Position numbers and translations under genes: made by a program. A stretch of 64,000 bases of DNA from Pseudooceanicola sp. HF7 (GTDB lineage: Bacteria > Pseudomonadota > Alphaproteobacteria > Rhodobacterales > Rhodobacteraceae), in contig NZ_JAATOW010000005.1 of assembly GCF_011806405.1 (NCBI RefSeq), forward strand, positions 62,001-126,000. Direction: 5' to 3'. The notes under the pieces were generated by a model. It saw only the letters and a list, made by a program, of their open reading frames with translations. It searched no databases and was not told the origin of the DNA. Below, piece after piece: positions 1 to 9,399 of the stretch; positions within the stretch are counted from its first letter, which is position 1; every line of letters begins with the position of its first letter.

Positions 1-993
1 GTTGCCCTCGCGGCGATGCTGACAGCTGTCTGCCGCCGATCCCTGGACTTCGCGCCGGTCCATGCCTTCAATGCGCCGTCGCCCGAAACCGGCAAGAGCT
101 TGCTCAGTGACATCCCGTCCATGATGGCAACCGGCGAACCAGCCGCGAAGCACACGCAGGACCGGAACCCAGAGGAGGACAAGAAGACCCTCCTTGGGGT
201 CCTTCAGCAGGGCGACCCGGTTCTGGTGATGGACAACGTCGAACGCGCGGTGGAGGGCTCCACTTGGTGCCTGATCCTGACTTCGCCGGAATGGGAGGCG
301 CGCTGGCTTGGCGCGAACGAACAGCGCCGCGTCCTGACGAACGTGCTGTTCATCTTCAACGGCAACAACATCGAGTTCCGGGGCGACATGGCGACCCGCG
401 CTGTGATGGCGACCATCGACGCCGGGGTGGAGGAACCCGCCGCGCGGACCTTCGACGTGGACCTGCGCAAGGACGTGCCGCGCCGCCGGGGCGAATTGGT
501 TTCGGCGGCCCTGACGGTCCTGCGTGGCCATGCCGCCGCAGGGATGCCGGGGGCGAGGTCGGACACCCGCTTCTTAGGGTGGTCGCGCCTTGTGCGCGGC
601 GCGCTCCTCTGGCTGGGCGAGGCTGACCCTTGGGAGACCCGCCACGCCGTTCGCGGCGGTGACTCCGCGCGTGACGAGGCGGTGCGCCTGATGGATGCCC
701 TTGAAGCCAACTTCGGGCGTGAGCCGTTCTCCGCGCGTGACGTGTGCAGAGAGGGCGGGCGCTGGTCCGACGAGGCGACCGACATTCAAGCCGCCCTCGG
801 GGCCGCGTTGGAGGAGCGGCAGCCGTCTGTCATGGATGCGCGGGGTGCGCCTAGTTCGCTGAAGGTCGGCAAGGCCCTCGTGAAGATGTGCGGGCGGATC
901 GTCCGGGGGCGGACCATCGCGGCGGTCGGCCGCGACCGGCTGCGTGGGAACCTGTTCATGGTAACGAATGGGGGGCCTGAGGCCGGGCGCTGA
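1..993 (+). CDS. Phage/plasmid-type primase-helicase ATPase, C-terminal part (5' end outside window)
   Basis: The reading frame is open from base 1, so the visible 330 codons are the C-terminal part of a longer protein. A P-loop-like segment (PSPETGKS) is followed by a DNVERAV segment in the Walker B position, an FNGNN sensor-like motif, and an arginine-rich stretch before the ELVSAALTVLRGH helix. This order is typical of the superfamily III/DUF3987-like ATPases at the C-terminus of phage and plasmid primase-helicases. The canonical GxxGxGKS glycine pattern is degenerate (P-E-T-G-K-S), which may be natural divergence. The iteron cluster follows directly downstream, so a role in initiating replication of the element is likely. 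The N-terminal primase domain, if there is one, cannot be seen. Confidence 0.6.
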   Translation, partial: VALAAMLTAVCRRSLDFAPVHAFNAPSPETGKSLLSDIPSMMATGEPAAKHTQDRNPEEDKKTLLGVLQQGDPVLVMDNVERAVEGSTWCLILTSPEWEARWLGANEQRRVLTNVLFIFNGNNIEFRGDMATRAVMATIDAGVEEPAARTFDVDLRKDVPRRRGELVSAALTVLRGHAAAGMPGARSDTRFLGWSRLVRGALLWLGEADPWETRHAVRGGDSARDEAVRLMDALEANFGREPFSARDVCREGGRWSDEATDIQAALGAALEERQPSVMDARGAPSSLKVGKALVKMCGRIVRGRTIAAVGRDRLRGNLFMVTNGGPEAGR

Positions 994-1023
994 ACGTGTA
1001 GCTCGGGCGTGCGAGCAAAGCGC

Positions 1024-1317
1024 GAGATGATCGGAGAAGATAGCGAGATGATTTGGAGGTGAATCATCTCGCCATTTCCGCCCAGAAGATCAGGGGCTTA
1101 TCAGCCCGCGAGATGATCGAGATGATTCAGGCCATATCGCCTATACGCGGGCGTGCGCGTTCCCCTCCCGGAGCCCTAGTTTCTGCATTTCCCCCGCGCG
1201 CTAAGATTTAAGAAAATCATCTCTATCATCTCGGGACAGGCTAACCCTCTGAAACGGTGGCGGGAAAGTGGGAGATGATTTCGCGGTAAATCATCTCGGA
1301 TCATCTCGGATCATCTC
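1024..1317. repeat. Iteron-like cluster: 11 copies of GAGATGAT/ATCATCTC
   Basis: Eleven exact copies of an 8-mer lie in under 300 bp. Five read GAGATGAT (starting 1024, 1045, 1110, 1119, 1272) and six read ATCATCTC (1063, 1216, 1225, 1290, 1300, 1310). Several are 9-10 bp apart, about one helical turn; the last three are spaced exactly 10 bp and flanked by CGG. Most copies are followed or preceded by C/CG. The cluster begins 30 bp after the primase-helicase stop codon. Short iterons next to a Rep/primase gene are the usual form of a plasmid or satellite origin. An operator for an element-encoded repressor is the alternative. Confidence 0.7.
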
Positions 1318-1328
1318 GCGGTGTGCCG

Positions 1329-1560
1329 GGGGCGTTGCCCCTCTGGGTTAGAATGAAGCACCTCCACGTCTTGTGCTTCTGGAAAAAGGGACCAACACCC
1401 GCCCGCTGCCGCCGATCTGGGTCGGCGGCAGCCACCCCGAAAAGGCCATCCCGGAATGGCCCGGCGGAAGCCAGCGCCGATGGGCTCGCAGGACCCGGCC
1501 CGAGGCAACCCCCTAGCCGAACGTTTACGGGGTAGACCGCCCAACAGCGTACACGGTACG
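1329..1560. other. Cluster of five perfect inverted repeats between iterons and recombinase gene
   Basis: Five perfect inverted repeats are seen: 1329-1333/1337-1341 (5 bp), 1355-1361/1373-1379 (7 bp), 1405-1415/1422-1432 (11 bp, 6-nt loop), 1444-1449/1456-1461 (6 bp) and 1548-1552/1556-1560 (5 bp). No convincing gene lies here. Serine resolvases bind inverted-repeat subsites of a res region just upstream of their own gene, so this may be the recombination site. A structured RNA or single-strand origin is also possible. None of the hairpins has a T-tract that would make it a terminator. Confidence 0.45.
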
Positions 1561-1597
1561 TTCTACATGTGGGCAGAATGAACGGGGGAACCACAAC

Positions 1598-2197
1598 ATG
1601 AAGCGCCGCGCCGCGATCTACGCCCGGGTGAGCACCGGAGGCCAGACGCCTGACAACCAGCTTCTAAGGCTCCGGGATGTGGCGGAAAGGGCCGGTTTCC
1701 AGATCGTGGAAGAGTATGTGGACACCGCGTCCGGGGCCAGCCCCTCGCGCAGCGGGATGGACCGGATGATGAAGGATGCCGCCCGCCGCCGGTTCGACAT
1801 CCTGCTTGCTTGGGACGTGTCGCGCCTTGGGCGGTCCCTGACGCAGCTCGTCGCACTGTTCGACACCCTACGCGCCCTCGGGGTGGACCTGATCCTTGAA
1901 CAGCAGGGCGTGGACACATCGACCCCGGCGGGCCGGGCGCTGATGCAGATGAGCGCCGTGTTCGCTGAGTTCGAGCGGGCCATGATCGTAGAGCGCACCA
2001 AGGCGGGGATAGAGCGTGCCCGGGCGCGTGGCTCGCAGATCGGGCGTCCCCCGGCGTCTGACGCCCTGATTACCTCCATCCGGGCGCTTCGGGCTCGAGG
2101 CATGGGGATGGACAAAATCGCCCGAGAGCTTCGCTGCGGCAAGGGCCTCAGCCAGCGCATTTGCAAAGAGTACGACAAGGAGGCTGCCGAGCCATGA
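1598..2197 (+). CDS. Small serine recombinase (resolvase/invertase family)
   Basis: This 199-residue protein has the complete layout of a small serine recombinase. The nucleophile is Ser12 in YARVST, followed by the conserved SRLGR segment near residue 75, the F-A-E-F-E-R region leading into the E helix, and ERTKAGIERARARG. A C-terminal helix-turn-helix (about residues 148-190) contains the usual GRP hinge. Length matches resolvases/invertases (180-210 residues), not large phage integrases. The start is supported by a GGGGA ribosome site just upstream. Upstream inverted repeats may be its target. It could resolve replication multimers of the element or invert a segment; it is not obviously the integrase for the tRNA site. 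The next gene overlaps it (ATGA). Confidence 0.88.
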   Translation: MKRRAAIYARVSTGGQTPDNQLLRLRDVAERAGFQIVEEYVDTASGASPSRSGMDRMMKDAARRRFDILLAWDVSRLGRSLTQLVALFDTLRALGVDLILEQQGVDTSTPAGRALMQMSAVFAEFERAMIVERTKAGIERARARGSQIGRPPASDALITSIRALRARGMGMDKIARELRCGKGLSQRICKEYDKEAAEP

Positions 2198-2676
2198 CCG
2201 ACAACAGAGACCTTCCCGCCCGCCTCGTGCCGCCCGGCTCCGGGGAGTTGGGCCGATCCCACTGGCACGTGACCGAGCTTGGCCTAGCCGTGGTCGAGGA
2301 GATGGCCGGGCGCGGCTGCCACGTCGCCACGATTGCCCGTGCCCTCGGCATGAGCAAGGATGCCTTCAAGTCCTGCCGCGACCGCCAGCCCGAGGTTGAC
2401 GAGGCGTACCACCGGGGCCTCGCCCGCGAGCATGACCAGCTCGTGAGCAACCTCCGCGCCGCCGCCGATGACGGCAACATTGTCGCCAACATCTTCCTCC
2501 TGAAGGCCCGCCACCAGTACCGCGAGGGCGAGGCGCTTGAGGCGAACCTGAACCTGAGCGTGAACACCGGCGGCGTTTTGGTTGTGCCACAAAAGCAATC
2601 AGTACAGGATTTTCTTGACGGCATCGAAGACCAAGAGGCTCTCGCCAAAAATCCGCAGAAGTCGCTTCAAACATAG
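2194..2676 (+). CDS. HTH protein resembling phage small terminase subunits
   Basis: The start codon overlaps the recombinase stop as ATGA, with an AAGGAGG ribosome site inside the upstream gene, so translation is coupled. The 160-residue product has a helix-turn-helix around residues 45-65 (VATIARALGMSKDAF), then a charged helix and the segment IFLLKARHQYREGE near residue 110. HTH plus an alpha-helical FLLKxRxxYRE tail is common in small terminase (TerS-like) proteins of phages, where the HTH binds the packaging site. If so, it could redirect packaging to the element, as satellites do, but no large terminase is visible. The assignment rests on pattern only; a transcription regulator is possible. 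Its end overlaps the convergent gene by 10 bp. Confidence 0.5.
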   Translation: MTDNRDLPARLVPPGSGELGRSHWHVTELGLAVVEEMAGRGCHVATIARALGMSKDAFKSCRDRQPEVDEAYHRGLAREHDQLVSNLRAAADDGNIVANIFLLKARHQYREGEALEANLNLSVNTGGVLVVPQKQSVQDFLDGIEDQEALAKNPQKSLQT

Positions 2677-3713
2677 AATATGTACTCCGGCATCCTATAT
2701 TCAGCAATTACCTGAAGCCGCTCGTCATCGTGCGTCAAAGCACCGAAACCTTCCCGGATATGCTCGGGAAGAATTTCGCCCCACGGCGTCGGAATATACA
2801 CGTTTGGAGTATAAGGGTTTTGACTTAGATCGAACATGTGCCTGCGATCATCTGGCAAAGACCGCTCCGCAAGCGCTTCTTGGAAAACATTCATTTGTCT
2901 GGCGCAAACCACCGCATCGATAAAATCGTAGACGACCGCCTCTCCGCCTTCTCGGTGAAATGAGTTGGGCGTCAATAGCCCTGCGAACTCTGACAGTAAA
3001 CTTCCGATAGGCTCATAAATGAAATCATCCCAAACAATGACTAGGATATTTCCACCTGGGCCACGAGGAAATCCAGAGAATTTCTCGTTTGCACTCACCA
3101 GGAAGTCTTTTACAGGATTGTCTCTTGGAAGCAGCGCGTCAGGGTTTTTCAACTGCACGCTAGCTGTAAATTCCTTCGTGATGCGGACAGGCAACTGGAC
3201 ACTAGAAGATCCTCTTCGGCGTTGGTGCAATAACAGGCTCGGCGACTTAACCTCAAAGTTGTAGATTCGCTCCCCGTCTACAACTTGGAACTCCGGTCGC
3301 AAACCGTTTTTCCCTCTTGGCTCAAAATGAAAGTGCGCGCAACTACTCCAAGGCATTAGCAGAATCCTATTGATTGCATAGACTTCTGCAAAAAGCTGGA
3401 GCATCTGCTGGTACTGAAGCTCATCGCGTTCCCTACCACCAAGTCGAGCCAACTCAGTGATGTACCGAACCCCGAGGCCGGGAACTACGCGCTCGGCGGA
3501 TGCGCATAGCTGAGCAAACTTCCAAAGATCTTTGTTGACGATGGGAATAGAGTACAAATACCCAAGCCAGTGCCAATCCTTGGCCAAGACGCCATCCTGC
3601 GCTGCAAGGTAAAAGGCAACGGCGTCCGGGCACTGGGCAGCGACGTGCGGGACCGGAGGAGAGATTTGGGCTCTCCGGTTGTCGAAATAGTACGGCCTAA
3701 GAAACTCGTGCAA
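2667..3713 (-). CDS. Unrecognised protein with PD-(D/E)XK-like nuclease core; defence candidate
   Basis: This 348-residue soluble protein is not recognised as a named family. In its middle it has R-P-E-F-Q-V-V-D-G-E-R followed by Y-N-F-E-V-K-S (about residues 138-156). That is the E-x-K half of a PD-(D/E)XK active site preceded by acidic residues. A later strand GGNILVIVWDDF fits the hydrophobic core of such folds. The start is taken as TTG because a GGGGGAG ribosome site lies 8 bases before it and no in-frame ATG is near. The gene is less G/C-rich than its neighbours and is the only minus-strand gene in its part of the island, as for a self-contained cargo module. A restriction or abortive nuclease is a reasonable guess, not shown. 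Confidence 0.5.
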   Translation of the reverse strand: MHEFLRPYYFDNRRAQISPPVPHVAAQCPDAVAFYLAAQDGVLAKDWHWLGYLYSIPIVNKDLWKFAQLCASAERVVPGLGVRYITELARLGGRERDELQYQQMLQLFAEVYAINRILLMPWSSCAHFHFEPRGKNGLRPEFQVVDGERIYNFEVKSPSLLLHQRRRGSSSVQLPVRITKEFTASVQLKNPDALLPRDNPVKDFLVSANEKFSGFPRGPGGNILVIVWDDFIYEPIGSLLSEFAGLLTPNSFHREGGEAVVYDFIDAVVCARQMNVFQEALAERSLPDDRRHMFDLSQNPYTPNVYIPTPWGEILPEHIREGFGALTHDDERLQVIAEYRMPEYIFYV

Positions 3714-3954
3714 ACATTACACTCCCCCGAAATCGCGCTTCCGCGCCAAAATAAACGAGCAGGTACTACCAAGATGTAATATGGAGTGCCGTCTCAGTGA
3801 AGCACTTACCAAATCCAACCTCTCAGCAACAACGAATAGCGCTCTGAGCCGCATGGGGCTCAAGATATAGTCTCCCTAGGACAAACGCCGCCCGCTGGAG
3901 GGCGCGCACCGAGCAAGGCGCTCAGGCACGGCGGCGACCACCATAGGAGACCCC

Positions 3955-4680
3955 ATGCCCGAGCCCGCACACATCCCCGAAGGCACCGCAATCCCCGATC
4001 TGACCGCACCCCCGATGGGCAAGGCGGAGGTGATCGACTTCGCAGCAGTCGTGAGCCGCCGCACTGAGAAGTTCGGCCAGACCATTGGCACCCTCTCCGC
4101 TGGCATCGCCACGCGGGGCCGCGAGGCTGCCGAGAGCCTCGCCCGGGCTGACTTCCCGCCGGAGGCGCAGGCAGAGGCCGCGCGCAAGGCGGAGGCCAAG
4201 GCCCGCAAGGAGGTTGTGACCAACAGCACCGACCGCCGGTGGGAGATGCTGAAGGAGCTGAAGGCGGCGGAGGACACCACCCGCACCACCGCCGCGCTCT
4301 TTGCCTCGCCACAGGCCGTCCTCGCCCGGGCCGGTCTGGGCACCACCGAACGCACCAACTTTGAGGCGCAGCTCGCAGGCTCCGGCCCGGCGCAGCTGAT
4401 GAACCTCGCCACGTTCGCCGTCGCCACCAAGAATGCGGTCCTCGGGGCCGCCCTCTGCGCGGTGTGCGAGCGGATGCCCCGGCGTGACCGTCCCTTCTCC
4501 CCTGCTGACTTGGCCGACCGCCTCGTGGGCGAGGAGACCCGGGCCGTGCAGGCAGCCGTCGAGGCCATCCGCAATGCCGCCCAGCGCGCAATCGTCGCAA
4601 ACCGCGAATTTGAGCGCGGGCGGGTGAACCCGCTGGACCGCGTGAAGGTCGCACTCAAGAGCCAGAAGGAGGCCAACTGA
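3955..4680 (+). CDS. Orphan helical protein, first gene of a coupled trio
   Basis: The 241-residue product is rich in Ala, Glu, Arg and Lys and is predicted by eye to be mostly alpha-helical, with a long charged stretch (about residues 60-110) that could form a coiled coil. No signal peptide, membrane segment or catalytic motif is seen. The start has an AGGAG ribosome site 6-7 bases upstream. Its stop overlaps the next start (TGATG), so the three genes to 5308 form one translational unit. The composition is similar to phage structural or scaffolding proteins, and the island context suggests an element-specific function, but no family is recognised. Confidence 0.6.
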   Translation: MPEPAHIPEGTAIPDLTAPPMGKAEVIDFAAVVSRRTEKFGQTIGTLSAGIATRGREAAESLARADFPPEAQAEAARKAEAKARKEVVTNSTDRRWEMLKELKAAEDTTRTTAALFASPQAVLARAGLGTTERTNFEAQLAGSGPAQLMNLATFAVATKNAVLGAALCAVCERMPRRDRPFSPADLADRLVGEETRAVQAAVEAIRNAAQRAIVANREFERGRVNPLDRVKVALKSQKEAN

Positions 4681-4940
4681 TGCCGCTCTACCTTGTAAGC
4701 CGCCCGAAGGGGGCGGACCACCTGAAGAACCCCGCCGGGATGCACGGCGCTCTGGTCGAGGCCGCAGACGCCGCCGCCGCCATCGCCGCTGCCAACGCCC
4801 TTGCGCCTCGGATGAACACGCCCTTCGCCGGGTACGATGCGACCGAGGTGGCGACCGCCGCCGCCGGAGGCTTTGCACCGGCGCTGATCCAAGGGGCGGT
4901 CGTGGGCGATGCCTACAGCGGCCCGGCTCGGGGGGCGTGA
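4680..4940 (+). CDS. Small orphan protein, second gene of coupled trio
   Basis: This is an 86-residue protein whose ATG shares a base with the preceding stop (TGATG) and whose own stop shares a base with the next start. The sequence begins with a short beta-strand-like piece (LYLVSRP) and continues into an Ala-rich stretch (VEAADAAAAIAAANAL), a typical layout of small phage proteins. No catalytic or metal-binding motif is present. Stop-start coupling on both sides and strong G/C-rich third positions support it as a real gene. Function unknown. Confidence 0.6.
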   Translation: MPLYLVSRPKGADHLKNPAGMHGALVEAADAAAAIAAANALAPRMNTPFAGYDATEVATAAAGGFAPALIQGAVVGDAYSGPARGA

Positions 4941-5308
4941 TGAACCCCGAGACCATCGCCGCCGCATACCCTGACCTGTTCCCCCGCCGGGTCCAGCGCG
5001 CCCACATGGCGCTGCTGACTTGGGCGGAGGAGGCGAACCCCGACCGCTGGCCGACCCCGCCTGACGTGTGCCGGTTCGCCCGCCTCTACAGCGTCCCGCG
5101 CGCCACCTTGGGCGCGCTCGTGGGGATGCTCTCCATGCGTCACGACAGCCAGACCCGCGAGACGTGGGTGGACGCTGTGCGCAACCCGGAGGACGCCCCG
5201 CCGCGCCTGATCCAGCGCCACTCCCGGGACGTGATCCGGGCCTTCGGCTGGTTCTGCGCAACCACGGACCTCGGGTGGCTCCGCCTCCCGAGCCCCACCA
5301 TCCATTGA
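4940..5308 (+). CDS. Small orphan protein, third gene of coupled trio
   Basis: This 122-residue protein is coupled to the gene before it by a TGATG overlap; a GTG three bases earlier is an alternative start. It is rich in Arg, Trp and Pro (for example W-P-T-P-P-D-V) and has no recognisable motif, signal peptide or membrane segment. It may be a partner of the two upstream proteins, because tight coupling usually keeps subunits in fixed ratio. The gene ends 20 bp before the convergent AbiTii gene, with a 9-bp-stem hairpin between them. Confidence 0.55.
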   Translation: MNPETIAAAYPDLFPRRVQRAHMALLTWAEEANPDRWPTPPDVCRFARLYSVPRATLGALVGMLSMRHDSQTRETWVDAVRNPEDAPPRLIQRHSRDVIRAFGWFCATTDLGWLRLPSPTIH

Positions 5309-5314
5309 ATAATG

Positions 5315-5340
5315 GGAGGCGGCAGGCGTCAGCCGCCTCC
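5315..5340. terminator. 9-bp hairpin between convergent genes
   Basis: GGAGGCGGC (5315-5323) pairs perfectly with GCCGCCTCC (5332-5340) over an 8-nt loop, exactly where two convergent genes meet; it includes the stop codon region of the AbiTii gene. There is no T-tract on either side, so it may block transcription only weakly or stabilise 3' ends. Confidence 0.45.
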
Positions 5341-6267
5341 GAGCAGCTTAAGAAGACCGCCCACCAGCGCGATAGCCCCCTCTGCGGTGAGATTGCCAGC
5401 CGCTCCGGTCAAAGCAGTCCGCACATCCTGAACCAATCCCCTAAGGGCAGTCCTGTTTGGTGCTGGTTTCTCTGTTTCAACGATTACCGCGTCGATGGTC
5501 TCCGCAAGGTCCGAGCGAGCCCCGGCATCCACTAATTGCGGGGCGGCATCGCGCAGCTGTTGCATCGTATTGCGCACTTCGGAAACACTTGCATCTGTCA
5601 GAGCGATGTCACCCGAGGTGTTGCCTTCACCCATGTTGCCAGCGAAGTTTCCTATTCTACCGATGTTAAAAGTTGTCATGACGGTCTTCGCACTTTCCAT
5701 CTCAGTGGCGTTGAAGGTAAATCCCTCCCCCAAGACGCCGTTTCGCTCCATCTCGATAGACCAATCAAGGACCTTGTTTCGTACAAAATCCACAATGCCG
5801 ACAATTCCCCCTCTGGGAATTTGAACAACCATTCTCGCCGTCTGGAAATTCGTCATTTTGTTGATTTCGATCACTATCTCGGGCGGGATAGGAAAGTGAT
5901 AGAGACCGTTACCTTCTCGCGACACTAGATCACGAAGACTTCCGATGGACTGAGCCACACGAGCAGTGCTCAAGAGTTCCGTCATAAATTCGTCGGCAGT
6001 CTGAATGGGAATCCATCCGTTGTAAGGATTCCAGGCGGCTGGCTGGCCATGGAGCTTCCGGTGATCCGGAAGTTCACCGGATGTGTACCCGTTTAGCTCG
6101 CTGTCGACCCAAGTTTCGAGCTGCCCTAGCCCAAGCTTTGTCGCAGCTAATTTAACCCGCCGAAGGAGTGACTCGACAGAAATGTTGTCATCGAGGCAGC
6201 CGCGCTGAATTTCATTAATTAGTCCGTTCAATCGCTCACTCCCAATCCAACTTGCCCAACCGACCAC
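5329..6267 (-). CDS. AbiTii-family protein (putative abortive-infection factor)
   Basis: The N-terminal 70 residues match the AbiTii domain pattern: a first helix (LINEIQRGC), SVESLLRRVKLAATKLG, then LETWVDSELNGYTSGELPDHRKLHG. The middle region (IPPEIVIEINKM ... VVQIPRGGIVGIVDFVRNKVLDWSIEME) is also usual for this family. The C-terminus is a helical tail ending LLKLLGGG that could touch membrane. AbiTii was first described in lactococcal phage resistance; the biochemical role of the domain is unknown. The start is GTG. Its lower G/C content than flanking phage-like genes and its place between the coupled trio and another minus-strand orphan fit a defence cargo gene. Confidence 0.75.
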   Translation of the reverse strand: MVGWASWIGSERLNGLINEIQRGCLDDNISVESLLRRVKLAATKLGLGQLETWVDSELNGYTSGELPDHRKLHGQPAAWNPYNGWIPIQTADEFMTELLSTARVAQSIGSLRDLVSREGNGLYHFPIPPEIVIEINKMTNFQTARMVVQIPRGGIVGIVDFVRNKVLDWSIEMERNGVLGEGFTFNATEMESAKTVMTTFNIGRIGNFAGNMGEGNTSGDIALTDASVSEVRNTMQQLRDAAPQLVDAGARSDLAETIDAVIVETEKPAPNRTALRGLVQDVRTALTGAAGNLTAEGAIALVGGLLKLLGGG

Positions 6268-6336
6268 TTAGATATGTGCTGGCAAAGCGTGATGCACAAG
6301 CGGACCGATTACCCCGAAACCGACCGTCCAGAGGGT

Positions 6337-6361
6337 GGCGCTCCCGGTGACCGGAAGCGCC
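6337..6361. other. Compound hairpin upstream of AbiTii gene / downstream of orphan gene
   Basis: GGCGCT (6337-6342) pairs with AGCGCC (6356-6361) and encloses a second inverted repeat, CCGGT/ACCGG (6344-6348/6350-6354). It lies about 50 bp past the stop of the minus-strand gene ending at 6414 and about 70 bp before the AbiTii start. It lacks a T-run, so it is either a weak terminator or an operator. Confidence 0.35.
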
Positions 6362-6413
6362 TTGCCCCGTGGACTGCGCCGGATGGCCCGGGCGTGACCT
6401 TTTCGGGGTGGTG

Positions 6414-7103
6414 TCAGGAGGCTTCAGCTAGGTGAGACCGGAGAGCCTCAAGTGCCTGCTCTGCATCCTTTACGAGTTCCAGTGCCACCGGGTCATCCCC
6501 AGAAGGACAGAGGCGCTCCCATGACAGGTAGCCTTGGACATGGCTCAAGACGGCTTGGGAGCCAGCCGTCCATTCGTCGTCTTCCTCCGCCGCACGGGCC
6601 GCGACCGCGACCAGAGTGCCGAAGTTGCGCAGGATGTTTTCCACCCACATGCAGCCGCCCCATTCGGCCCACCATCCTTCTTCAGTCAGGGCCTCAAGCT
6701 GGTTTAGGTGGAACGCTATCTTGTGGAAGTCCGGTTCTGATCCCCCATCGGGCGAGGATGGCATTACTTCGATTACCCGCCGAGCGTGCGCGGCGGCCTG
6801 CTTGACTCCCTCAAGGGCTTCCGCCGCAGGGCGTTCCTCCGGCTCAAAATATTCCAAAGACAGCTCGCCTGCCCAATTGGCGACGGCTTCCAACATGACC
6901 GGGTAGAGGTTCTGGTCGCGTGACTGGACGGCAAGGCCCAGCTCCACCTCTCGGGCAACCAAGGTCCCGAAGTGGCGCAGCAGGTTATTGAGACCGATGC
7001 AATCCAGCGCGGGTTCGGCGGACAGTCCCTTTAGATCGGCCATCAATTCGCGGATTGCGGCGCGGTCGTCAGCGTTTAGGCCGTTGTGGTCAATGTTGCT
7101 CAT
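6414..7103 (-). CDS. Orphan protein built of two related halves
   Basis: This is a 229-residue acidic, helical protein. Its two halves share a motif: N-N-L-L-R-H-F-G-T-L-V-A (near residue 44) and E-N-I-L-R-N-F-G-T-L-V-A (near residue 155). Each is preceded by a Cys (DCIGLNN; GGCMWVEN) and followed by an acidic helix and a W/Y-rich segment (VANWAGELSLEYF; VQGYLSWERL). This is an internal duplication of roughly 100 residues. No known domain is recognised. The ATG is chosen because a GGAG site sits 8 bases before it; a GTG three codons upstream is too close to that site. It may share a transcript with the AbiTii gene 147 bp downstream, so a defence role is plausible by association only. Confidence 0.6.
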   Translation of the reverse strand: MSNIDHNGLNADDRAAIRELMADLKGLSAEPALDCIGLNNLLRHFGTLVAREVELGLAVQSRDQNLYPVMLEAVANWAGELSLEYFEPEERPAAEALEGVKQAAAHARRVIEVMPSSPDGGSEPDFHKIAFHLNQLEALTEEGWWAEWGGCMWVENILRNFGTLVAVAARAAEEDDEWTAGSQAVLSHVQGYLSWERLCPSGDDPVALELVKDAEQALEALRSHLAEAS

Positions 7104-7747
7104 GTGAAGCACTCCTTTGTTTGGAGCGCTGGCATCGAATGTGATGGATCATGCCGACACACTAACGCCAGCACCCGATTGTGGGTGTTGATGTTAAAGT
7201 GGTCGGCGCCATGTTCGGTCCCGGTCTGCCGGATCGGCAGCCTGCCTTATGGTTGGATGGAGGGGTGGCCTCCCGCCGGTCTTGCCCCCGGGCCGTATAC
7301 CGGACTCTGGCGTGGCCCGTCGCCGGGCGCTCCTATCACAAGACATGACGATGGTGACTCAGGCGCGCAGCGGTTGCAATGCAATCTTTTCCCTGAGCAA
7401 GGGTGTCAAATGCTGCGAAAGAACGAAAAAAGAACTTAGCAGGTCTTGTGCCGCTGCGGCAGCGACCCCATATTGATGGTATGGCGCCCAATTGGGGGCG
7501 TTCCAGTCACGTGTTTAAACTGTCAAGGCCAGTTTCGCAGCCGGTGCAAGACGCGAGTTCGATCATTCGGGCTCCTCTCGCCAGCCACGCGGGCGGCTTT
7601 GCGGCAATCCGGCAATACCACATTGCCAGGTGCTTCACAGTATACACGACCACGTCGAAGACGAACGCACACCGCAGAACGGCGGGGGCGGAGATGTTAA
7701 GGGTCGGTGCGTTGACCCGAAGCTCTTGCCCCCTCTCGCGGAGGCCG
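7104..7747 (+). other. Hairpin-rich non-coding leader of the reverse transcriptase gene; ncRNA candidate
   Basis: No convincing coding frame exists across these 644 bp. Perfect short hairpins are frequent: CTGCCG/CGGCAG (7226-7231/7235-7240), CGGGCC/GGCCCG (7289-7294/7314-7319), TGCCG/CGGCA (7449-7453/7457-7461), and a CGCCC/GGGCG type stem at about 7484-7500. Known defence reverse transcriptases such as DRT2 and DRT9, and retrons, have a non-coding RNA template or cofactor encoded just upstream of the RT gene. The position, size and structure fit that arrangement. This is inference: neither a promoter nor RNA boundaries can be fixed from the sequence. Confidence 0.4.
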
Positions 7748-9223
7748 ATGGAAGACGAGTTCGATTTCACCGCCAAAGACCTAAAGCACTATCCGCATTT
7801 CGATGCGCCGATCACGCTGAAGGAAATTCGCCGCCTCGTCACAGACCCGAAGAGGGTGGCATCCAACTCCTTCTACCCCTTTTTCCTGTACGAAGAGTCA
7901 TGGCAACCGTACCGCTCCACGGATGCGGCCAAGCCTGACAAGAAGACGCGACCGATCCGATACGGCGCGCGGCGAGACGCCTACATCTTTGCCTTCTACC
8001 GCCGGAAACTCTCCCGCCTCTATGAGGCGCGCCTCCGGGAGATGGGCATTGAAGATTGCCCAATTGCCTACCGGCAGGTGTTGAAGCCGGGGCGGGGTGG
8101 CGGGAAATGCAACATCGACTTCGCCAAGGACGCCTTCGATGAAATCGACCGGCTCGGGGATTGCGTGGCGGTTGCGCTCGACGTCAAAGGCTACTTTGAG
8201 AACTTGGACCACAAGCGGATCAAGCGCATTTGGTGCGACCTTCTGGGTGTTGCAGAACTTCCGCCGGACCACTACGCGGTCTTCAGGAACATCACCAAGT
8301 ACAGATATGTCGATCAGCGCTCTGTCTATTCGCGGCTTGGCTATTTCGGGATGCGAGAGCGCAACGGGCACATGATCCCGGGCTTTCTGATGCCCTTCCG
8401 CGACATGCCCAAGCAGCTATGTTCCAACGCAGACTTCCGCGCCAAGATTTGCGGCGGTGATCCGAAGCACGGTCCCTCGCTCGTCCAGAAGAACGTTCTA
8501 CCGCATGGTGTCCCGCAAGGTGCGCCAATCTCAGACCTGATCGCGAACTTCTACATGTTGGAGTTTGACGCAGTGATGGCTGAGTTCGCCAGAGCTGGGG
8601 GCGGGCGCTACATGCGTTACTCAGATGACATTTTGCTGATACTGCCCGGGGGGAGCCCTGAAGCACGGGCCGCAATCGACTTCGCCACGGCTGAGATGCG
8701 CAAGCATGGGCCGGAGTTGCGAATCAAAGACGCTAAGACCTGTGTTGCGCAGTTCCAGCAAGCGCCGGGCGGGCTGCGGTTCCACCATTTGAAACAGAGG
8801 CCCGACGAGGCAGCGAAGAACGGCTTTGAGTACTTGGGCTTCCGGTACGATGGGCGGCGGGTCTATGTGCGCGACAGCACCATATCCCGGTTCTACGGCA
8901 AAGTGGCAGGGGCGGCGAAACGTGAAGGGCGGCGTCACGTCGAGAGCAACCCGGCGATGGACGCTGGGACTTTGATTGGCAGCTTCGACTATCCGCTGTT
9001 CTCCCAGCGCTTCAGCAAGGTCAAGAAGTCCAACCTGACCAGCGACTACCGCAGCTGGACGTTTTACTCATACCTCAAGCGGTCTGCCGAGGCGTTCGGC
9101 CCAAAGGGAGACCGCATCCTGCGGCAGGCGCGCGGCTTCGATGAATTCATGAAGGATCGCGTAAGGTTGGCCATCGTCTCGGGCGTCGCAAAGCGTAAGC
9201 CGCCGGTGCCGGAGACCAGTTGA
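7748..9223 (+). CDS. Reverse transcriptase of the bacterial defence (UG/Abi/DRT) type
   Basis: The 491-residue protein contains the ordered RT palm motifs. Motif A is ALDVKGYFENLDH (about 141-153), motif B is HGVPQGAPISDLIAN (about 250-265), and the catalytic motif C is YSDD at residues 291-294, with Asp293/294 as metal ligands. A YLGF motif E lies near residue 360. YSDD replaces the YADD of group II intron and retron enzymes. No maturase or HNH domain follows; the last 130 residues are a helical domain without known motif. It lies alone at the island edge, so a defence-associated RT (DRT) is more likely than an intron enzyme; the DRT class is not determined. GGAGG precedes the ATG by only 3 bases; ATG at 7694 is an alternative. 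Confidence 0.85.
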   Translation: MEDEFDFTAKDLKHYPHFDAPITLKEIRRLVTDPKRVASNSFYPFFLYEESWQPYRSTDAAKPDKKTRPIRYGARRDAYIFAFYRRKLSRLYEARLREMGIEDCPIAYRQVLKPGRGGGKCNIDFAKDAFDEIDRLGDCVAVALDVKGYFENLDHKRIKRIWCDLLGVAELPPDHYAVFRNITKYRYVDQRSVYSRLGYFGMRERNGHMIPGFLMPFRDMPKQLCSNADFRAKICGGDPKHGPSLVQKNVLPHGVPQGAPISDLIANFYMLEFDAVMAEFARAGGGRYMRYSDDILLILPGGSPEARAAIDFATAEMRKHGPELRIKDAKTCVAQFQQAPGGLRFHHLKQRPDEAAKNGFEYLGFRYDGRRVYVRDSTISRFYGKVAGAAKREGRRHVESNPAMDAGTLIGSFDYPLFSQRFSKVKKSNLTSDYRSWTFYSYLKRSAEAFGPKGDRILRQARGFDEFMKDRVRLAIVSGVAKRKPPVPETS

Positions 9224-9282
9224 GCCTGACTGCCGAGCCTTACGCGGACCTTACTTTTCAGCCTTACGCGAGAAAATCCGGA

Positions 9283-9317
9283 AAAAGAAAAACCCTCTAA
9301 GTCACTGACCTAGAGGG
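9283..9317 (-). terminator. Intrinsic terminator of tRNA-Asn
   Basis: Read on the minus strand, a 7-bp stem (9311-9317 with 9293-9299), with four further inner pairs, is followed by T5-C-T5. It lies just past the tRNA 3' end, so it terminates tRNA-Asn transcription and also separates it from the convergent reverse transcriptase gene. Confidence 0.8.
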
Positions 9318-9324
9318 CTTATCT

Positions 9325-9399
9325 TGGCTCCGGCGGTAGGGATCGAACCTACGACCAATTGATTAACAGTCAACTGCTCTACCGCTGAGCTACGCCGGA
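9325..9399 (-). tRNA. tRNA-Asn (GTT)
   Basis: The minus strand folds as a full cloverleaf: acceptor arms 9393-9399 and 9329-9335 pair over 7 bp, the D-arm contains AGCTCAGCGGTAGAGC, the anticodon loop is CTGTTAA (GTT), and the T-loop is TTCGATC. CCA is encoded (9325-9327). Its 3' end faces the island, making it the probable attachment site. Confidence 0.96.

Follow-up and report, generated by a model that had tools for sequence, protein, structure and literature searches.

The window, by which we mean the whole stretch of 64,000 nucleotides that was analysed, carries a reverse transcriptase (RT) gene preceded by a leader gap. This gap, between a minus-strand open reading frame (6414-7112) and the RT start, comprises 635 nt in which no sense-strand gene is found. 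The features of the locus are collected in Table 1.

Table 1. Features assigned to the RT locus and its surroundings (positions within the window)
Feature	Positions	Strand	Basis
AbiTii-domain abortive-infection gene, second minus-strand ORF upstream of DRT2	5329-6267	-	Pfam, PADLOC
Predicted DRT2 ncRNA	7478-7747	+	5' end placed by conservation; 3' end approximate
5' handle hairpin, CGCCC/GGGCG	7485-7500	+	fold, bases checked
Mechanical antisense ORF that includes the linear portion of predicted neo	7507-7776	-	ORF list
Left arm at template mouth	7509-7514	+	fold
Predicted 141-nt template, with proposed jump motifs GU 7513-7514 and GU 7654-7655	7513-7653	+	exact junction inferred
-35 half of predicted neo promoter, TTGACA (RNA TGTCAA)	7521-7526	-	leader alignment, hexamer scans
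Predicted neo start ATG, with AGGAG at 7572-7576 (-), 5 nt apart	7564-7566	-	leader scan, bases checked
-10 half of predicted neo promoter, TATACT (RNA AGTATA)	7639-7644	-	leader alignment, hexamer scans
Pseudoknot 5' strand AACGCAC, pairing with GTGCGTT 7707-7713	7664-7670	+	scaffold search, bases checked
3' scaffold hairpin: outer helix 7684-7690/7727-7733, inner helix 7701-7705/7714-7718, loop 7707-7713 in pseudoknot	7684-7733	+	scaffold search, bases checked
Drt2/UG2 RT, 491 aa, YSDD active site	7748-9223	+	profile searches and homologue match starts
46-bp attachment repeat, tRNA-Asn 3' end	9325-9370		direct-repeat search

The RT reading frame as called mechanically spans 7403-9223, and the start was placed at ATG 7748 rather than at 7403 because of the points at which homologue matches begin and a GGAGG ribosome site seen in the sequence at 7740-7744. 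In PADLOC, two Drt2 profiles match this protein at 436.6 bits (PDLC03757) and 301.5 bits (PDLC02173), the next RT profile reaching 63.7 bits, and its best matches in the PDB are the solved Drt2 chains (E 5.9e-60). RVT_1 is the sole Pfam match at E values up to 0.1, and at that threshold Pfam shows neither a maturase nor an intron domain, in agreement with the initial annotation of an RT with a YSDD active site and neither kind of domain. The score of 346.8 bits against the NCBIfam equivalog for Drt2, NF041746, lies below its cutoff of 390, yet Drt2 is the best model by far, and we read the shortfall as divergence within the Drt2 family.

Placement of the RT in a tree, proposed at the outset, is consistent with such divergence. 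Among 28 RTs, the window RT belongs to a group of 12 with support of 100/99, separate from the rows with a YCDD active site (L037 from Photobacterium, L039 from Psychrobacter, L053 from Calothrix, L058 from Nitratidesulfovibrio and L052 from a viral contig), in a tree that was built without KpnDRT2 and in which several rows are long-branched and deep placements unsure. The tree leaves out the broken RTs L006, L008 and L042, together with L010, L016, L017, L036, L038 and L059; plasmid matches H9, H11, H17-H21 and H23-H30, phage matches H31-H33 and a partial match in G885 (L049) stand outside the comparison. Close relatives share 70-97% RT identity with the window RT. Viral contigs gave no match to the single RT protein, and the same search with an RT alignment retrieved L051 and L052. 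The active site of KpnDRT2 is YCDD (PMC12039810); YSDD is found in other branches too and is therefore no marker of the window's clade. By its sequence, the window RT appears to represent a divergent, alphaproteobacterial branch of DRT2 outside the Klebsiella-type (YCDD) group. Thus DRT2, which had been named as an analogy, is the right system but in fact the family itself, and the new class that had been suggested gives way to a divergent branch of a published one (PMC12039810, PMC11100668).

The extent of the RNA has likewise been narrowed. A structured leader of 640 nt had been proposed, and a conserved leader is indeed present in all nine close leaders (window included), with good conservation beginning at about 7478-7482, but only some 270 nt (7478-7747) are well conserved; the conserved leader is also present in L051. 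Upstream of this region, conservation is patchy from about 7420 (GAACGAAAAA..., TCTTG), in a block that occurs in most of the nine and is absent from L008 and L034, and 7113-7470 aligns with L002, a relative with a 97%-identical RT, at a mean column identity of 88%. From 7250 onward the upstream leader shows no visible alignment with L003, L004, L005 or L034, and a search of 7113-7470 against plasmids gave no match. The possibility that the whole gap forms the RNA was rejected, as its upstream part is well shared with L002 alone among the aligned relatives.

Across 394 genomes of the family, leader matches were found in eight. Six of these are strong, including the window's own, and five of the six lie beside an RT; the matches in G298 and G368, of 27 and 24 nt, were taken as chance. 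In G389 the match (L075 402-576) ends near window position 7653, the predicted end of the template, 401 bases from a contig end and near the start of that contig, and the leader continues beyond that point into unrelated DNA that may belong to an insertion sequence. The RT fragments of G013 (L010, L043, L044) have no fitting leader, and the leader of L038, which runs across the end of its record, was outside the scan. Rfam gave no match to the window leader at gathering score and two weak sub-threshold matches at E up to 5. A consensus scan of linear 7300-7760 found no sigma-70-like promoter on either strand; this favours a neo promoter that only concatenation would create, but the scan gave none for the ncRNA itself either, which counts against the DRT2 reading set out below.

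Thermodynamic stability was set aside as evidence for a structured leader, as it is not significant: the fold of 7478-7747 has an energy of -108 kcal/mol, shuffled sequences average -101 (z -1.34), and 24 of 200 shuffles fold as well. The initial annotation had emphasized perfect hairpins in a gap with no coding frame; it was correct as to the sense strand, but the hairpins lie within chance and a frame on the antisense strand was overlooked. What exceeds chance in the leader is its conservation and the re-formation of helices across lineages, not the hairpins alone.

The 3' part of the RNA illustrates such re-formation. In the window the scaffold is built from an outer helix GGGGGCG/TGCCCCC and an inner helix GGGTC/GACCC, and the same layout is re-formed by other sequences in L009 (TTAGTGTTT/AAACACTAA), L042 (TTGCGG/CCGCAA), L046 (TGCC/GGCA) and L047 (GTGGT/GCCAC). 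Of 300 shuffles per leader, equally good scaffolds arose in one for the window, none for L007, one for L008, none for L009 or L042, three for L046 and four for L047; in L035 the search did not recover the scaffold (193 of 300 shuffles as good). Inside the close clade the pseudoknot pairs are invariant and show no covariation, while the covariation of the complete structure does not clearly exceed that of shuffled controls (53 of 500). A covariance search across homologues, also proposed initially, was carried out with a model lacking the pseudoknot; it recovered L009 (E 1.1e-5) but no other distant leader convincingly, and in 11 chosen genomes it gave five matches, those of the window's genome and of four close relatives. 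At the mouth of the template, pairing of 7510-7514 with 7644-7648 is favoured (pair probability 0.61-0.77). A basal stem of ACGTG (7509-7513) with CACGT (7651-7655) is possible, but at about 0.20 it is not the favoured fold.

The genes termed neo cannot be read in any genome and arise only after repeat synthesis. In KpnDRT2, 91 bp separate the two promoter hexamers, which come together at a 17-bp spacing at the junction of 120-nt repeats (PMC12039810, PMC11100668). The two promoter halves in the window lie near opposite ends of the template, out of order in the linear DNA, so that head-to-tail copies of the template would create TTGACA-17 nt-TATACT together with an endless frame of 141 nt, or 47 codons. 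One antisense frame is stop-free through the 141-nt template in all ten close leaders (window included), and the other two antisense frames contain stops in each of them. Counting against the neo reading, eight of the ten have an open frame on the sense strand as well, and it is one frame in all eight. Within the repeat, the start region of the window reads AGGAG-CCCGA-ATG (7576-7564, minus strand), and a ribosome site with a start codon is found in seven of eight clade leaders, L042 being the exception.

Variation in the length of the template offers a more stringent view of this frame. The outer hexamer distance is 124 nt in nine close leaders and in L051, 121 in L009, 115 in L035, 112 in L046, 106 in L042 and 103 in L047, the value that by our own arithmetic corresponds to the 91 bp of KpnDRT2. 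Throughout this range of 103-124 nt, the distance is 1 modulo 3 in all eight clade leaders scanned, with the best match used where a leader holds several hexamer pairs. With a 17-nt spacer, repeat lengths would therefore be 141, 138, 132, 129, 123 and 120 nt, in the order of the distances given, all divisible by 3, a divisibility that depends on the predicted spacer. As a small control outside the template, the stretch between the -10 half and the RT start was measured: the window has 103 nt, L008 102 nt (with one gap), L035 129 nt and L042 122 nt, so that all three remainders occur.

Shuffled sequences provide a further standard of comparison. A strict pattern consisting of an exact TTGACA, a near match to TATAAT, the frame and a ribosome site is present in nine of 11 real leaders and in none of 33,000 dinucleotide shuffles; when the ribosome site is dropped, the figures are ten of 11 and nine of 33,000. 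The two leaders that lack the strict pattern are L007, whose -10 half is TATGCT, and L042, which has no ribosome site. Chance alone would leave the frame open with a probability of 0.03-0.29 per lineage in the nine lineages measured, a test that retained stop-free copies by design, yields only these shuffle chances as its result and leaves out L007 and L008; the other antisense frames each contain a stop in all nine. In all nine lineages, too, the predicted repeats exceed shuffled DNA in hydrophobicity (z 0.7 to 3.6), and a hydrophobic bias has been published for Neo (PMC12039810, PMC11100668).

Of 23 DRT2 leaders scanned, 15 have such a frame, comprising eight of eight in the clade and seven of 15 outside it; L054 fits only via a weak TACAGT, and no fit was found in L011, L012, L039, L053, L057, L058, L059 and L061. 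The leaders of L013, L055, L056, L037, L052 and L060, which range from Rhizobiaceae to Lactiplantibacillus, obey the frame rule, a hint that Neo may occur more widely across DRT2.

Another issue for understanding the predicted cycle is where the RT would jump from one end of the template to the other. At register 17 all eight clade leaders have the cDNA dinucleotide AC at either side of the junction, and the identity extends to 3-4 nt in L009, L046 and L047. ACA-1 is found at the place expected from KpnDRT2 in none of the eight, and neither it nor ACA-2 was found in its place. An alternative reading is that repeats are synthesized via CACGT (7508-7512 and 7651-7655), the longest identity at the window's template ends (5 nt in the RNA, at register 19), giving repeats of 143 nt and a 24-aa peptide, with the cDNA or the short peptide as effector. 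Register 19 would set the promoter halves 19 nt apart and break the frame, which meets a stop after 24 codons; it matches just 4 nt in L007 and 2 nt in L008, and it is register 17 that has the highest identity summed over 11 lineages (31, the next being 23). We regard this alternative as improbable, and ACG/ACG as a jump motif, with the same 143 nt and broken frame, was rejected. The comparison across lineages favours 141 nt as the better-supported repeat length, with GU/GU as a candidate for the exact junction.

Family membership, RNA conservation, the pseudoknot, the promoter halves, the frame and the ribosome site can all be read from sequence, and they indicate that the locus is very probably a DRT2 (UG2) phage-defence system with its own template RNA and a hidden, predicted neo gene. 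The RT-ncRNA defence pair envisaged initially is thereby supported by the Drt2 profile, the five of six strong leader matches that adjoin an RT, the DRT2-type pseudoknot, the promoter halves and the frame. By analogy with KpnDRT2, the leader and RT would be transcribed together, presumably yielding the ncRNA, and the RT would bind the pseudoknotted 3' scaffold and the 5' hairpin of that RNA. It would then copy the template (about 7513-7653) and, on reaching the template's 5' end, jump to the 3' end and begin again, producing head-to-tail cDNA repeats of 141 nt. Once a second strand had been made, every junction would set TTGACA 17 bp ahead of TATACT, a promoter absent from the linear DNA, and translation from AGGAG-N5-ATG in the stop-less frame would give a protein of 47-aa repeats (MIELASCTGCETGLDSLN|VVVYTVKHLAMWYCRIAAKPPAWLARGAR, with the junction at the bar). 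By the same analogy, the Neo repeat protein would be toxic, arresting growth of the infected cell and so providing defence.

Comparison with KpnDRT2 illustrates how such a scheme may be retained while its details vary. The two systems, so far as the published accounts (PMC12039810, PMC11100668) describe KpnDRT2, share a homologous RT with an ncRNA directly upstream that has a pseudoknotted 3' part, out-of-order TTGACA and TATAAT-like halves that would join at 17 nt on concatenation, and a stop-free antisense frame of a length divisible by 3 that encodes a hydrophobic repeat. Unlike KpnDRT2, the window has YSDD in place of YCDD and lacks ACA-1/ACA-2, for which a GU pair is proposed; its predicted repeat is 141 nt, compared with the 111-129 nt given for 42 close KpnDRT2 homologues, and its start codon lies 72 nt after the -10 half by our own count, whereas in KpnDRT2 the ribosome site and start codon lie 13 nt past it (PMC12039810, PMC11100668). 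A start so far inside the repeat would imply an mRNA with a long leader. We consider it about evenly balanced whether these differences define a separate DRT2 branch with a modified neo cycle, characterized by a GU/GU jump, longer repeats of variable length (120-141 nt) and a start deep in the repeat; counting somewhat against it, the basal stem placed at the GU motifs has the lower probability of the two predicted pairings. Other alphaproteobacterial DRT2s (L013, L055 from Neorhizobium and L056 from Rhizobium) have the same promoter halves and follow the frame rule at D = 112, but their RTs are 30-34% identical and fall in a separate branch, and their ribosome site lies near the -10 half. More distantly, DRT2 has been compared with telomerase, which also synthesizes repeats on a template beside a pseudoknot but whose repeats are of 4-8 nt (PMC12039810), and DRT10, a tandem-repeat RT, resembles the system in repeat synthesis as far as its description goes.

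Some related loci are broken. The RT genes of L006, L008 and L042 are broken and their leaders retain the open neo frame; one internal stop apiece in the RTs of L006 and L008, the split RT of G428 and the cut leader of G389 might suggest that the window, too, holds a decaying copy without function in its host. Against this, the window's RT frame is uninterrupted for 491 aa and the elements of Table 1 are present in its leader; we judge decay improbable, slightly more so than the CACGT jump.

A further rival accepts a DRT2 relative but makes the RNA a cofactor with no protein product, the promoter halves and frame being by-products of RNA constraint. In the close leaders, variable sites number 19, 23 and 23 by codon position, with no third-position bias, and the share of synonymous differences is 0.313 in the neo frame, a value that the other five frames bracket (0.211-0.404), so that amino-acid conservation of the predicted Neo is not visible and the synonymous bias expected of a protein is absent. 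Most conserved Neo residues of KpnDRT2 relatives have themselves been ascribed to nucleotide conservation (PMC12039810, PMC11100668), and the preprint of Tang et al. calls annotation of Neo "more challenging" where DRT2 clades are divergent, which it takes to suggest that other mechanisms operate there (PMC11100668). RNA constraint does not, however, explain why templates of six different lengths all leave the same remainder modulo 3, or why seven of eight clade leaders have a ribosome site with a start codon, and we judge this rival less probable again than decay. That the locus is a retron or group II intron remnant can be set aside as exceedingly improbable, since the weak generic matches in NCBIfam (57.1 bits to TIGR04416, cutoff 300, and 38.5 bits to retron St85, cutoff 235) score far under those cutoffs and far under Drt2, RVT_1 alone is matched in Pfam, and neither class was found in NCBIfam, PADLOC or Rfam, where there is no intron match.

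What the DRT2 reading adds to a published family is the prediction of a neo gene, altered in some details, for one of its divergent clades. That such a gene can be predicted by a frame rule in so distant a clade suggests that gene-making RTs are not confined to the Klebsiella-type group, and the rule itself, a distance between promoter halves of 1 modulo 3, is a simple way to seek more neo genes. If true, the modified cycle would close for this clade the gap in Neo annotation left by Tang et al. (PMC11100668). A literature search for DRT2 together with alphaproteobacteria found no report; the journal version and supplements of Tang et al. lay outside its scope, and we do not claim that Neo of this clade is unpublished.

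The genomic setting of the locus is that of a mobile element. The left copy of the attachment repeat lies 13,034 bp leftward on the contig, outside the window (C48:58291-58336), and with the right copy (C48:71325-71370) it bounds a 13.1-kb element at tRNA-Asn (C48:58291-71370; window part 1-9370), of which DRT2 is the last cargo, just before the tRNA. An integrase, presumably of the tyrosine type, adjoins the left repeat. The element also encodes an 895-aa protein that matches phage families, among them one named DNA polymerase/primase, over its C-terminal 325 aa, as well as a resolvase, a small-terminase-like protein (E 6.3e-6) and AbiTii; two further cargo frames on the minus strand (2667-3713 and 6414-7112) have no convincing match in Pfam, PADLOC, NCBIfam or PHROGs. 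In its overall composition the element looks like an integrative phage satellite with two defence genes. When the flanks of the DRT2 locus were scanned in nine relatives, to a distance of about 500 bases, no tRNA gene was found in L003, L034, L035 and L051; one is present in the other five, namely tRNA-Asn in L002, tRNA-Phe in L004, L005 and L008, and tRNA-Met in L075.
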